64,000 nt of DNA from Sphaerisporangium krabiense. Its GTDB lineage: Bacteria > Actinomycetota > Actinomycetes > Streptosporangiales > Streptosporangiaceae. The stretch spans positions 4,123,501 to 4,187,500 of the forward strand of contig NZ_JACHBR010000001.1 of NCBI RefSeq assembly GCF_014200435.1, in the 5' to 3' direction. A program made the position numbers and the translations under genes. This document shows positions 41,857 through 54,943 of this stretch, piece by piece (the first letter of the stretch is position 1; the number at the start of each line of letters is the position of its first letter). The notes beneath the pieces were generated by a model. The model worked only from the letters and a program-made list of their open reading frames with translations. It ran no database searches and was not told where the DNA came from.

Positions 41857-42744
41857 TCAGACCCGGTCCAGCGCCTCTTCCACCATGTGCGCGACGCGCG
41901 GCAGGTTCCGCTCGTCGAACACGCTGTAGTGGTCGCCGGACAGGGCCACGTGGTGGAACTCGCCGGTGGACTTGCGCCGCCACGCCTCGGTGCTGACCTG
42001 GTGCGCCCCGGCGATCAGGGCGTACACCGGGCCGTCGTACGAGGCGGGCGGGTGGTAGCGGTACAGCGCCTCGGCGGCGCCGGCGAAGATGTGGTACCGG
42101 TCCCGCAGCTCGTCGGCCGACAGGTCCAGTGACACGCCGGTCTTCGCCAGCATGTCCGTGATCGGGGTGAGCGCGTCCAGCGGCTTGAGCAGCCAGGCCA
42201 GCTCGCCCGACGGCACGCCCTGCAGCCGGGACACGTCGTAGACGAACTGCCGGCGCAGCTCCTCCTCGTCGGGCACCGGGACGCTCAGGTCCACGGCGTA
42301 CTCGGCGTCGAACAGCACCACCGGCTGCCGCGCGCCGCTGCGCTCGGCGTGCTGGCGCGCCACCTCGAAGGCGAGGCACGCGCCGAACGACCACCCGGCG
42401 AACACGCAGGTGGACAGGTCCATCTCGGCGCCCAGCTCGTCCAGGATCCGCGTGCCGACCTCGACGAGCCTGCGCTCCACGGGCCTGGCCCGGTCGCCGG
42501 GCCTGCTGAGGCAGCCGTACACGCCGTACCCCTCGCGCAGCGCCCGGGTGAGCGGCACGTAGCAGAACAGCGCGCCGCCGCTCGGGTTCATCAGCACCAG
42601 GTTGCGCGGCTCGGCGCCGGCGCGCATCACGACGGCCTGGGTCTCGCGCGCCGCCGTGGTCTGCGCGCGGCGCGCGAGCATCTGCTCGTACAGCTTCCTG
42701 CGCTCGGGGGAGAGCTGGGCGAGCTTGTCCTCGGGGACGCTCAT
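41857..42744 (-). CDS. Stand-alone thioesterase (alpha/beta hydrolase)
   Basis: 295 residues. The nucleophile elbow is AGWSFGA (Ser119), a likely Asp is in VLFDAEYA (D147), and His272 in SGDHYS completes the triad. The first 25 residues (LAQLSPERRKLYEQMLARR) resemble the short helix that tethers NRPS proteins to one another. No TE domain is fused to any NRPS here, so this enzyme may release the finished peptide or clear misacylated carriers. ATGA overlap with the NRPS gene upstream; last gene of the operon. Confidence 0.88.
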   Translation of the reverse strand: MSVPEDKLAQLSPERRKLYEQMLARRAQTTAARETQAVVMRAGAEPRNLVLMNPSGGALFCYVPLTRALREGYGVYGCLSRPGDRARPVERRLVEVGTRILDELGAEMDLSTCVFAGWSFGACLAFEVARQHAERSGARQPVVLFDAEYAVDLSVPVPDEEELRRQFVYDVSRLQGVPSGELAWLLKPLDALTPITDMLAKTGVSLDLSADELRDRYHIFAGAAEALYRYHPPASYDGPVYALIAGAHQVSTEAWRRKSTGEFHHVALSGDHYSVFDERNLPRVAHMVEEALDRV

Positions 42745-45700
42745 CGGTTCTCCTCCTCCAGCCGTGCGCTCGCCGCGCTGACCTCTTCCTCCGACATGGA
42801 CTCCAGCATGGCGAGCAGTTCGTCCTCGCTCATGGAGTCCATGCGCTGGGCGTCGACGATGCCCGCGATGTGCGCCGGGGTCGGGGACAGGAAGAAGTCG
42901 GCCAGCGAGATGCGCACCTTGAAGCGCCGGTTGATGGACGAGATGAGCTGCGCGGCCTGCAGGCTGTTCCCGCCGAGCTGGAAGAAGTCGTCGCCGACGC
43001 CGATGCGCTCGTTGCGCAGCAGCGGCCCCATGATCTCCTGGACCAGCACGCGCTCGGTCTCGGTCCTCGGCTGCGCCACGGGGCCGCCGGCCGACAGCGG
43101 CTCCGGGTCGGGCAGCGCGCGGCGGTTGACCTTCCCGCTGCTGTTCAGCGGCAGCTCGGGCAGGTGCACGAAGTAGGACGGGATCATGTACGCGGGCAGC
43201 CGCTCCGCCAGGTGCTCGCGCAGCGCGTCCACGTCGAGCGGCCCCGCGCCGGTGGAGACGTACCCCACCAGGTGCCGTTCGCCGGCCTCGTCCGCCCACG
43301 GCTCCACCGCGACCTGGGCGACGCCGGGGAACGCGGCGACGCCCGCCTCGACCTCGCCCAGCTCGATCCGCAGGCCGCGGATCTTCACCTGCTGGTCGAT
43401 GCGGCCGATGAAGACGATCCGGCCGTCCGACAGCCGCTTGACCAGGTCGCCGGTGCGGTACAGCCGCCCTCCCGGCGCGGTGCCGAACGGGTCGGGGACG
43501 AACTTCTCCTCGGTCAGCTCGGGCCGGTTCAGGTACCCCCTGGCCAGGCCCGCGCCGCCGATGACCAGCTCGCCCGGCACGCCGCACGGCACCGGGTTCA
43601 GATGGCGGTCCAGGACGTGGGCGACGTGGTTGGTCATGGGCAGGCCGATCGGCGGGGTGTTCTCCCAGGTCCCCGGGCACTCCTCGACGATCATGGTGAC
43701 CGTGCACTCGGTGGGGCCGTAGCCGTTGAACAGGCGGCGGCCCGGGTTCCACCGGTTGACGAGCTCGGCCGAGAACGCCTCGCCGCCGACGAACACGATG
43801 CGCAGCGCGTCGAACCGCTCGGGTTCGAGCAGGTTCATCACCGCGGGCGGCAGGTCGATCACGGTGATCCCCGACCGCTCCATCAACGCCTGCAGGCGCT
43901 CGATGGACAGCCGCTCCTCGTCCACGGCCAGGTACAGCCGCGCCCCGGTGAGCAACGCGGCGAACAGCTCGAACACCGACACGTCGAAGTTCAGCGAGGC
44001 GAAGCCGAGGACGCGGTCCTCGGGGGTCAGCTCGAACAGCTCCTGAACCGTGTCGACGAAGTTGACGACGCTGCGCTGTTCGATCAGCACGCCCTTCGGC
44101 CGTCCCGTGCTGCCGGAGGTGTAGATGATGTAGGCGACGTCGTCGGGACCGGCCGTCAGCTGCGGGTCGTCCTCCGGCGCCGAGCCCAGCGCCTCGCCGA
44201 TCTCGTCCAGGACGACGAGCTGGCGCCCCGCCCCGGCCAGCCGGTCGGTGAGCGAGGAGTCGGTCAGCACGGCCAGCGCGTCGGCGTCCGCGACGATCTG
44301 CGCGATCCTGGCGGCGGGGTTGGACGGGTCCAGCGGCAGGTAGGCCGCGCCGGACTTCAGCACGGCGAGCACCGCCACCACCATGTCGGCCGAGCGCGGC
44401 AGCGCGAGCGCCACGACCTGGCCGGGCTTGGCGCCGAGGTCGAGGAGGTGGTGCGCGAGCCGGTTGGCCCTGCGGTTCAGCTCGGCGTAGGTGACCGGAA
44501 CCTCCGACACCACCAGCGCGGTCTCCTCGCCCCTGGCCCTGACCTGCGCCTCGAACTCGGCGACGATCGTGGTGGCGCGCACCTCGCGCGCGGGTCCGCC
44601 GAAGGACAGGACGCGCTCGTACTCCCGCTCGTCCAGCGCATCGATGTACGACAGCGGGGTCTGCGGCGAGGCGCAGGCGTTGATGAGGAACCGCCCGTAG
44701 TTGGCGGCGAACCGCTCGACGGTCTCCTCGTCGAACAGGTCGGTGTTGTACTCGCACTCGATGGTGCTGAGGTCGCCGTTCCTGGTGATGCCCCAGGCCA
44801 TGTCGAACCGCGAGGTGCCGGTGTGCGTGGACGCGAGGCTGACCTCGATGCCCTCGAGCTGGATCGGCGGCGCGAAGTCGGCGAGCGCGAACGCGATCTG
44901 GAACAAGGGCTGCCGCGACGGGTCGCGCGGCGGCCGGACGGCCTCGATGAGCTTGCCGAACGGGATGTCGCCGTGGGAGAACGTGTCCTGGACGACGGTC
45001 CGCGTGCGGTCCACGATCTCGCGGAAGGTCGGGTCGCCCGACAGGTCGAAGCGCAGGACGAGCTGGTTGATGAAGAAGCCGGTCACGGTCTCCAGCGAGC
45101 TGAAGCGGCGGTTGGCGTTCGGCGAGCCGATCACCACGTCGTCCTGGCCGCTGTAGCGCTGCATCATCGCGGCGAACCCGGCCGTGAAGATGTTGAACGG
45201 CGTGACGCCGATCTTGCGGGCCAGCCCGTCCACCGCGCGGTCCAGCTCGGGCGGCAGCGCCACCTGGACCCCGGCGCCGTTGAAGGTGACCTGCGTGGGA
45301 CGCGGCCGGTCGGTGGGGAACTCCAGCGTCGGCGCGTCGGCGAGCCGTTCGCGCCACCAGGTGTTCAGGTCCTCGAGGCGCTTGCCCGCCAGCCATTCCC
45401 GCTGCCAGACCGCGTAGTCGGCGTACTGCACCGGCAGGTCGGCGAGCTCCGGCTCGACGCCGTTCCTGCCCGCCCGGTACAGCTCGGCCAGGTCGCGGGC
45501 GAGCACCGTCTGCGACCAGCCGTCGAAGACCATGTGGTGGACGTTGAACAGCAGGTAGTGGTCGTCGGGCGCCAGCCGGTACAGGCGGACGCGCCACAGC
45601 GGCGGCGTCTCGATCGCGAAGGGGATGCGCGCCTCGATCCTGAGCAGCGCCTCGACCTCCTGCTCGCTGGACGCCTCCACGAGGAGCATCTCGACGGGCA

Positions 45701-54314: not shown

Positions 54315-54943
54315 GACGGGTCCCCGGCGGGCTCGCCGGTCGCCTGCAGCGTGAGCGCGAACACGTGGACGGCGATGTTGCGCGGCAGGCGCAGCCCGGT
54401 CAGCGGCGCGCGCCGCGTCACCGGCACCCGCTGGCTCCACATCAGCGCCTCCACCCGAGGCTGCGTGTGGTGCGGGTAGTGCATGACCGGCGTCTCGAAC
54501 GCCTTGGTCTCACCGAACGCCGCGTGCGCCTGGGCCCAGAAGTCCGAGACCCGCAGCGACTCGAAGTCCACCTCGCCATCGGAGAAGTGCAGGGCCACGG
54601 TGTCCTCGGTGCGGCGCTCGGCGGCGGTCAGCAGGTGGATCCAGTCGTAGCGGCCCTCGGGAAGTTCCACATATTGGCCCGCGCACCTGACGTTGTCCCC
54701 CGCGGCGGAGGGACCGCCGAAACGGAATGGCACGCCCGCCACCTCCACCCGCGCGCCCGGCGGCGGCAGGTATTCGGCGGGAAAGGAATTACGCCACACG
54801 TTGAAACCGCCCGACCCGCGGTCGTCCGCCGCCGAGATCGCGCGATTGTTCCAATGCGCGGCCAGGTCGACGGGCAGCAGTGTCGTCCTGGTCACGACGG
54901 ATAACGGCGGGCTCCCGGTTTTCAACTCCGAATCGACGTCCAC
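54311..54943 (-). CDS. Uncharacterised protein with beta-sandwich-like sequence
   Basis: 210 residues from GTG 54943 with GGAGG four bases upstream. The region VDLAAHWNNRAIS ... GARVEVAGVPFRFG ... DNVRCAGQYVELPEGRYDWI resembles the carbohydrate-binding-like beta-sandwich found attached to glycosidases. Normally it is an accessory domain, not a stand-alone cytosolic protein, and there is no signal peptide. A His-rich piece VMHYPHHTQPR might bind metal. First gene of the long left-going operon and coupled to the BtrH-like gene. No function assigned. Confidence 0.7.
   Translation of the reverse strand: MDVDSELKTGSPPLSVVTRTTLLPVDLAAHWNNRAISAADDRGSGGFNVWRNSFPAEYLPPPGARVEVAGVPFRFGGPSAAGDNVRCAGQYVELPEGRYDWIHLLTAAERRTEDTVALHFSDGEVDFESLRVSDFWAQAHAAFGETKAFETPVMHYPHHTQPRVEALMWSQRVPVTRRAPLTGLRLPRNIAVHVFALTLQATGEPAGDPS

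Follow-up and report, generated by a model that had tools for sequence, protein, structure and literature searches.

A Sphaerisporangium krabiense gene cluster predicted to make an aziridine peptide of the azinomycin/vazabitide type, with a second azabicycle-clade module and an added amino-acid cassette

The actinomycete Sphaerisporangium krabiense carries in its 8.5-Mb genome a nonribosomal peptide synthetase (NRPS) cluster organised around LysW, an amino-group carrier protein (AmCP), and we describe here its genes, its relatives and the peptide that it may make. The stretch analysed (the window; G000:C1:4123501-4187500) is 64,000 nucleotides long, and positions are counted from its first base. 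A minus-strand operon at 41857-54943 encodes, in order of transcription, homologues of AziU2 and AziU3, a DegT aminotransferase, two transketolase halves, LysW, LysX, LysY, LysZ, LysK, a condensation-adenylation-carrier (C-A-T) NRPS (CAT1) and a thioesterase. Upstream of the operon, on the same strand and 205 bases off, is an adenylation-carrier (A-T) NRPS, and a divergent plus-strand run encodes a second C-A-T NRPS (CAT2), two acyl-CoA-dehydrogenase-type proteins and a cytochrome P450 that crosses the window edge. Synteny with a relative genome (G008) extends across 24 cluster genes at 93-100% amino acid identity, and synteny with Sphaerisporangium album, of the same genus, is seen at 74-97% identity, there inverted and with additional genes separating the P450 from a RidA gene. 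The cluster is wider than the operon, with a sulfotransferase at 37819 at one end and the other end no nearer than a major facilitator superfamily (MFS) transporter about 5.7 kb past the window (68355-69677 in extended coordinates); synteny with both relatives covers at least this span. Its features in the window are the following.

37819..38562, minus strand: sulfotransferase, predicted to sulfate (2S,6R)-diamino-(5R,7)-dihydroxyheptanoate (DADH) before aziridine formation (PF19798, E 1.5e-18)
41093..41791, plus strand: LuxR-type response regulator, possible cluster regulator (PF00072, PF00196; 97-99% identity in both relatives)
41857..42744, minus strand: thioesterase for release (PF00975, E 9.9e-18; GWSFG motif)
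42741..46046, minus strand: NRPS CAT1 (C-A-T), adenylation code DVFDFGGVTK, azabicycle-type (Pfam condensation, adenylation and carrier domains; code; clade)
46043..47191, minus strand: LysK-type M20 hydrolase (NF003367, E 2.2e-103; broader TIGR01902 above cut-off)
47191..48042, minus strand: LysZ kinase (NF010659, 226.7 bits, cut-off 223)
48071..49093, minus strand: LysY/ArgC-type reductase (argC model TIGR01850, 336.3 bits, cut-off 233.6)
49081..49950, minus strand: LysX ATP-grasp ligase (TIGR02144, 278.7 bits, cut-off 275.6)
49947..50111, minus strand: LysW amino-group carrier protein, 54 residues, C-terminal EDWGE (TIGR01206, 53.4 bits, cut-off 53.2)
50140..51087, minus strand: transketolase, pyrimidine-binding and C-terminal half (PF02779, PF02780)
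51084..51914, minus strand: transketolase, ThDP-binding half (PF00456; NF004559)
51911..53242, minus strand: DegT-family aminotransferase (PF01041, E 1.6e-90)
53283..54314, minus strand: AziU3 homologue, larger partner of the predicted aziridine-forming enzyme (PDB 7wuw_C, E 1.8e-82)
54311..54943, minus strand: AziU2 homologue, smaller partner of the predicted aziridine-forming enzyme (7wuw_A, E 9.9e-55; 8gs1_A, E 8.5e-55)
55149..57479, minus strand: NRPS A-T, code DVWHVSLIDK, Ser-type (Pfam; N-terminal remnant of a condensation domain without HHxxxDG)
57780..61115, plus strand: NRPS CAT2 (C-A-T), code DVLDVGGVAK, paralogue of CAT1 (Pfam; clade placement)
61112..62296, plus strand: acyl-CoA-dehydrogenase-type oxidase 1 (best NCBIfam match prolyl-PCP dehydrogenase, far below cut-off)
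62280..63386, plus strand: acyl-CoA-dehydrogenase-type partner 2 (C-terminal domain alone recognised)
63387..64000, plus strand, running 622 bases past the window: cytochrome P450 (C-terminal part matched by PF00067, N-terminal part by NCBIfam P450 models with scores under their cut-off)

The initial annotation of this DNA described a left-going operon in which almost every junction was an overlap of 1-13 bases. Family models and gene calls place all twelve of the genes that it named on the minus strand, and eight of the 11 junctions are overlaps of that length; the other three are gaps of 28, 28 and 40 bases, so that the wording was somewhat strong. This count takes the LysX start at 49950, and the gene-caller start at 49926 turns one overlap into a gap.

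The carrier itself is as first described. LysW has 54 residues, the zinc-ribbon motifs CPEC and CGDC and the EDWGE end, just passes TIGR01206, and is the only match to PF21344 (LysW family) in the host genome. LysK scores 346.3 bits with the [LysW]-lysine hydrolase model NF003367, just below its cut-off of 363, and the argC model TIGR01850 does not tell LysY and ArgC apart. With the LysX and LysZ homologues, the AmCP gene set is complete. Together with the two transketolase halves and the DegT enzyme, it is consistent with the initial proposal of an AmCP route towards DADH that feeds an NRPS.

The first two genes transcribed had been taken for a protein of unknown function and a BtrH-like transferase, and these are instead the homologues of AziU2 and AziU3. 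The 210-residue AziU2 homologue matches PDB chains that bear the names AziU2 and Azi28 (E about 1e-54), and the AziU3 homologue matches chains named AziU3 and Azi29 (E about 2e-82) and shares 35 columns that are invariant across an alignment of 18 sequences, itself included. Because these two homologues are identified, we place the cluster with azinomycin and vazabitide. AziU3/U2 and the vazabitide equivalent catalyse the displacement of sulfate that yields the aziridine, and the vazabitide cluster holds an AziU3/U2-like pair for this purpose. The sulfotransferase at 37819-38562 has 93% and 84% identity in the two close relatives. In section 3.3 of PMC9570651, DADH is sulfated and a neighbouring amine then displaces the sulfate to give the aziridine; that section does not name AziU3/U2 as the catalyst of the displacement. 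Judged by homology, the components that an aziridine-type pathway would call for (AziU3 with AziU2, the split transketolase, the aminotransferase and the sulfotransferase) are all present here.

Gene identities, adenylation codes, phylogeny and synteny are observed; the catalytic steps read onto them are drawn from homology, one review (PMC9570651) and earlier work on relatives. In this scheme, LysX would load glutamate onto LysW, and LysZ with LysY would reduce the bound glutamate to the semialdehyde. The split transketolase would extend the semialdehyde by two carbons, the DegT enzyme would transaminate the extended chain, and LysK would release DADH from LysW. Sulfation of DADH by the sulfotransferase would be followed by displacement of the sulfate by the AziU3/AziU2 pair, closing the aziridine. 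An azabicycle-type adenylation (A) domain would then load the aziridine residue, the acyl-CoA-dehydrogenase pair may oxidise the carrier-bound chain and so lead to closure of the second ring, and the A-T protein would supply Ser. The peptide would be released by the thioesterase and exported by the MFS pump.

To compare this gene content with that of known systems, two azinomycin-type clusters were read over 120 kb each, in Streptomyces sp. NRRL S-340 (G389) and S. flavidovirens (G390), the label "azinomycin-type" coming from the identity of their AziU3 to 7wuw (94% and 88%). They share with the present cluster AziU3 (46-47%), AziU2 (51-55%) and the sulfotransferase (41-51%), as well as LysX/Y/Z/K, the transketolase halves, DegT, a P450 and one A domain with the code DVFDFGGVT, and they have the acyl-CoA-dehydrogenase pair too (first member 40-42%, second 33% over part). 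In addition, they have one A domain whose code we take to be threonine-like, and one or two with codes that are not sensibly readable. The single DVFDFGGVT domain and the Thr-like domain fit the one azabicycle and the Thr-derived end of azinomycin, which PMC9570651 describes as also containing a naphthoate-derived part. The present cluster, unlike these, has the Ser A-T protein, two azabicycle-type modules and a cassette of further genes described below. With the vazabitide A cluster (Vzb) it has in common the AmCP route to DADH, as cited in PMC9570651.

Such loci are widespread. When the alignment of 18 AziU3 sequences was scanned against 84,980 species genomes, 101 relatives were found, and 80 loci were kept (S. 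album included); neighbours were counted by tblastn (E 1e-4) within 10 kb of AziU3, with short flanks at 11 of the 80. AziU2 is a neighbour at 79 loci, LysX at 65, LysW at 59, the transketolase halves at 58 and 60 and the sulfotransferase at 56, and at 47 loci LysW, LysX, LysZ, LysY, both transketolase halves, DegT and AziU2 are all present. Within the host's order, AziU3 occurs in 18 of 345 genomes, the host among them. Given this wide occurrence, the operon first reported, taken alone, is nothing unusual within a broad class. On a Streptomyces plasmid, one annotated cluster combines AmCP genes, AziU3 and a sulfotransferase with cysC and cysD (activated-sulfate supply). Two other AziU3 clusters, on Streptomyces plasmids NBC_01006 (L227) and NBC_01343 (L236), are annotated with aspartate kinase, aspartate-semialdehyde dehydrogenase, a 2-oxoglutarate-Fe dioxygenase and two proteins of the tryptophan-2,3-dioxygenase family.

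The initial annotation had regarded the BtrH-like gene, the Ser A-T protein, the paired C-A-T modules and the acyl-CoA-dehydrogenase pair as setting this cluster apart. The Ser A-T protein (its code DVWHVSLIDK is one that we take to specify Ser), the C-A-T pair and the dehydrogenase pair are all found, but several of these features distinguish it less than was supposed. The dehydrogenase pair occurs in both azinomycin-type clusters, 6 of the 80 loci have a Ser-type A domain less than 10 kb from AziU3, and the BtrH-like gene is an AziU3 homologue. What does differ is that the second C-A-T module has an A domain of the azabicycle clade, and that the cassette described below is present.

One kind of A domain recurs beside AziU3. 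A domain with the code DxFDFGG is present at 46 of the 80 loci, as one copy at 43 and as two at 3 (codes were read by alignment to GrsA and later to CAT1). A tree was built from 86 A domains of the window, G008 and the AziU3 loci; one of its branches separates 48 domains with D(V/T)FDFGGV and 3 CAT2 domains from 35 others (SH-aLRT 98). The rows of this tree are tblastn matches with E up to 1e-40 that span at least 400 residues, and truncated A domains were excluded, among them that of S. album CAT1, which runs into the locus end. It is a quick tree without bootstrap, in which the code columns were retained and the tool flagged long branches among the other A domains. On plasmids, all four records with a full-length AziU3 hold DVFDFG(G/A)V (DVFDFGGVT, DVFDFGGVA twice and DVFDFGAVA), and the signature is found in none of the six similar A domains read from records without AziU3. 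These counts cover 10 of the 25 plasmid A-domain rows listed, four of them in AziU3 records; three records with partial AziU3-like matches were left out. The DxFDFGGV clade tracks AziU3, and we propose it as a signature that is not yet established, the link between code and substrate being a correlation. The three loci where AziU3 has two DVFDFGGV domains less than 10 kb away, those of Actinoplanes sp. TFC3 (L082), Paractinoplanes ferrugineus (L085) and Streptomyces albireticuli (L122), are possible candidates for other double-azabicycle clusters.

Several observations weigh against assigning the cluster to the azinomycin/vazabitide type. The sulfotransferase is 16 kb distant from AziU2. Neither azinomycin-type cluster shows a recognised LysW, which means that not every member of the class uses the carrier route. 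At 34 of the 80 loci the DxFDFGG domain is absent within 10 kb; some of these loci are on short contigs, and the azinomycin-type clusters place the domain farther off. Finally, the code of CAT2 drifts, reading DVLDVGGVA here, DVFDLGGVA in G008 and DVFDMGGVA in S. album. With these points taken into account, we still consider it very probable that the core pathway leads to a peptide of the azinomycin/vazabitide type that carries an aziridine (1-azabicyclo[3.1.0]hexane).

A new type of AmCP/DADH peptide outside the azinomycin/vazabitide logic, as first proposed, could be imagined, and operons without AziU3/U2 seem to exist. In a 33-kb stretch of a Streptomyces sp. NBC_01237 plasmid (L009, 241339-274223), homologues of LysX/Y/Z/K, transketolase and DegT (55-72%) lie beside a large NRPS, and no AziU3, AziU2 or LysW match is found among the genes called there; this may be a related cluster without an aziridine product. 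However, AziU3, AziU2, the sulfotransferase and the oxidase pair are all present in the Sphaerisporangium cluster, and we regard a departure from azinomycin and vazabitide as highly improbable, AziU3 and AziU2 tying it to them. The other half of that proposal, that the peptide is a new one, probably holds in the sense that it is not a known compound.

Past the P450 and outside the window lie RidA and then a minus-strand operon, joined by 4-base overlaps, of a BesD-family enzyme (a 2-oxoglutarate dioxygenase), an argininosuccinate synthase (ASS) and a formyltransferase (FT). This cassette was not recognised in the initial annotation, all four genes being outside the window. The closest known systems to its dioxygenase are the BesD/HalB/HalD family of lysine halogenases and the lysine-hydroxylase relative 7jsd. 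The enzyme matches PF23169 (HalD) at E 2e-98 and BesD (6nie) at E 3e-57, and scores 217 bits with NF042920 (BesD), far under the cut-off of 450. Nine of the 11 BesD positions compared are identical: the two iron ligands, the two 2-oxoglutarate contacts and all but one of the six lysine contacts, although a gap adjoins one of these five in the alignment; the Trp that contacts lysine in BesD is Leu here. At residues 141-143, all three Sphaerisporangium proteins have HWD where BesD has HWG, and according to PMC13244439 it is the exchange of the carboxylate for Gly that frees the halide site in BesD. The reading as a halogenase, suggested by the Pfam name HalD and the best NCBIfam match, was rejected on account of HWD in this position. 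Since it has HxD instead of HxG, the enzyme is predicted to hydroxylate, its predicted substrate being a free cationic amino acid. In 16 further homologues from the host's order, HWD is found in the nearest three (56-58%) and HWG in ten at 39-44%; the remaining three have HWD (39%), HWG (34%) and HFD (32%).

The cassette ASS differs from the host's usual copy (32% identity to the other ASS in the genome), and its ten best plasmid matches are alphaproteobacterial (54-56%). The FT resembles sugar-formylating and tRNA-formylating enzymes. Winogradskya humida, W. consettensis and Nocardia sp. NRRL S-836 have a stand-alone cassette with, in the same gene order as here, an HxD BesD-family enzyme (48-51%), ASS (56-57%) and FT (52-56%), followed in the Nocardia by RidA (44%). 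There the cassette is on a contig other than that of AziU3, with no NRPS match within the 20 kb read, whereas here it is in the AziU3 cluster.

Within the host's order, the BesD-family gene occurs in 3 of the 18 AziU3 genomes, all of them Sphaerisporangium. A search of the genomes behind 50 of the 80 AziU3 loci gave three matches to the protein: S. album (90%), Kibdelosporangium persicum (42%, on a contig other than that of AziU3, which lies near a contig end) and Streptomyces sp. TBY4 (34%). ASS was searched in 50 genomes that partly differ from these. Acrocarpospora has ASS (48%) and FT (38%) on one contig, AziU3 at the end of another and no BesD-family match, and its cluster may be split across contigs. 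The full cassette adjoins the AziU3 cluster in only three Sphaerisporangium among the genomes searched. RidA, FT, ASS and the BesD-family gene each have no match within 10 kb of AziU3 at the 80 loci, a span too short to decide, given that all four lie just beyond 10 kb in S. album; as far as this count goes, a role of the cassette as a general component of azabicycle clusters is unsupported. The best reading of these patterns is a transplanted amino-acid pathway, the role of which is probably to produce or alter one more cationic amino acid. Formation of an amidine, from a formamide via aspartate transfer by FT and ASS, is speculation. A limited literature search found no description joining argininosuccinate synthase, formyltransferase and amidine in a biosynthetic gene cluster.

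What CAT2 loads bears directly on the product. The initial annotation noted paired C-A-T modules and did not recognise the second as a member of the azabicycle clade. The two C-A-T modules share 51% identity along the whole length of CAT2 (1104 aligned positions), and both keep HHxxxDG in their condensation domains and GGNS in their carriers. After its own orthologues, the 11 best matches of the CAT2 A domain are all azabicycle-type domains (53-56%), and in the 86-domain tree it is nested within their clade, giving two such domains here versus one each in the two azinomycin-type clusters. CAT2 comes from the same A-domain lineage as CAT1 and may supply a second azabicycle-type residue, a suggestion that we hold tentatively. 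Alternatively, with an even chance in our estimate, there is a single azabicycle, and CAT2 was re-tuned after duplication for a different residue, which the BesD-family/ASS/FT cassette perhaps produces. Its long branch (0.62) and the three codes in three genomes, each departing from DVFDFGGVT, would agree with such re-tuning, as would a cassette without an obvious A domain of its own and a remaining A domain that is Ser-type. On the other hand, CAT2 is nested inside the azabicycle clade and retains DxxDxGGV, and its operon includes the acyl-CoA-dehydrogenase pair, which likewise lies beside DVFDFGGV modules in four other clusters read and in the annotated plasmid clusters. A second azabicycle and another residue at CAT2 are about equally likely.

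Based on these modules, the likely product is a peptide in which Ser is joined by one or two azabicycle residues. A fuller structure, with two azabicycle residues, Ser and a new cassette amino acid (cationic, hydroxylated by the BesD-family enzyme and altered by FT and ASS, perhaps to an amidine), is doubtful. Azinomycin itself is unlikely, because Pfam detects no polyketide synthase domain in the 24 named cluster genes and there is no Thr-type A domain, the codes being one Ser-type and two azabicycle-type. The product could in principle be vazabitide A or ficellomycin, which are of the same class, but this is very unlikely: the nearest AziU3 outside the genus has 59-60% identity, and, in the genomes searched, Sphaerisporangium alone has the BesD-family gene of the cassette near AziU3. 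No producer of either compound was recognised by name among the 80 AziU3 loci, and nothing on this cluster was noticed in the titles and abstract openings of the literature.

A search of the genome for an AlkZ-type self-resistance glycosylase, prompted by PMC9040887, found none inside the cluster; the closest of five matches above cut-off is some 123 kb before the window, and 214 kb after it there is a sixth that falls short of the cut-off. Between the sulfotransferase and the regulator, no convincing gene occupies 38563-41092, a region of 2.5 kb with lower GC, which aligns at 86% in G008 and over about half its length at 83% in S. album. In this region, an open reading frame of 112 residues (40357-40695) is 89% alike in S. 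album and is uncalled in G008. Adjoining the cluster is an ATP-binding cassette transporter pair (33286-34948, minus strand), the ATPase of which is like the daunorubicin-resistance type and below the cut-off of that model; the pair is common to G008 and was not found in the S. album stretch read. Farther off are a Wadjet-type defence operon with homologues of JetA2, JetB2, JetC2 and JetD2 (24441-33317, plus strand; PADLOC models) and a gene for a 2755-residue RHS-repeat protein with laminin-G-like domains and DUF6531 (13534-21801, plus strand; lower GC, marked A>T skew).

The class, its chemistry and the gene set of the operon first reported are known; what makes the cluster a new form of this class is a module that is doubled and drifts in its code, together with the cassette. 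With this cluster, the little-studied genus Sphaerisporangium joins the likely makers of aziridine peptides. The DxFDFGGV signature could predict, across actinomycetes, which module carries the warhead and how many warheads a peptide has, and the present cluster, with two domains of the azabicycle clade, is a natural test case. A BesD-family enzyme that keeps most lysine-binding residues, lacks the halide site and is fixed beside ASS and FT in at least two settings points to an amino-acid pathway for which the one literature search aimed at it gave no description.

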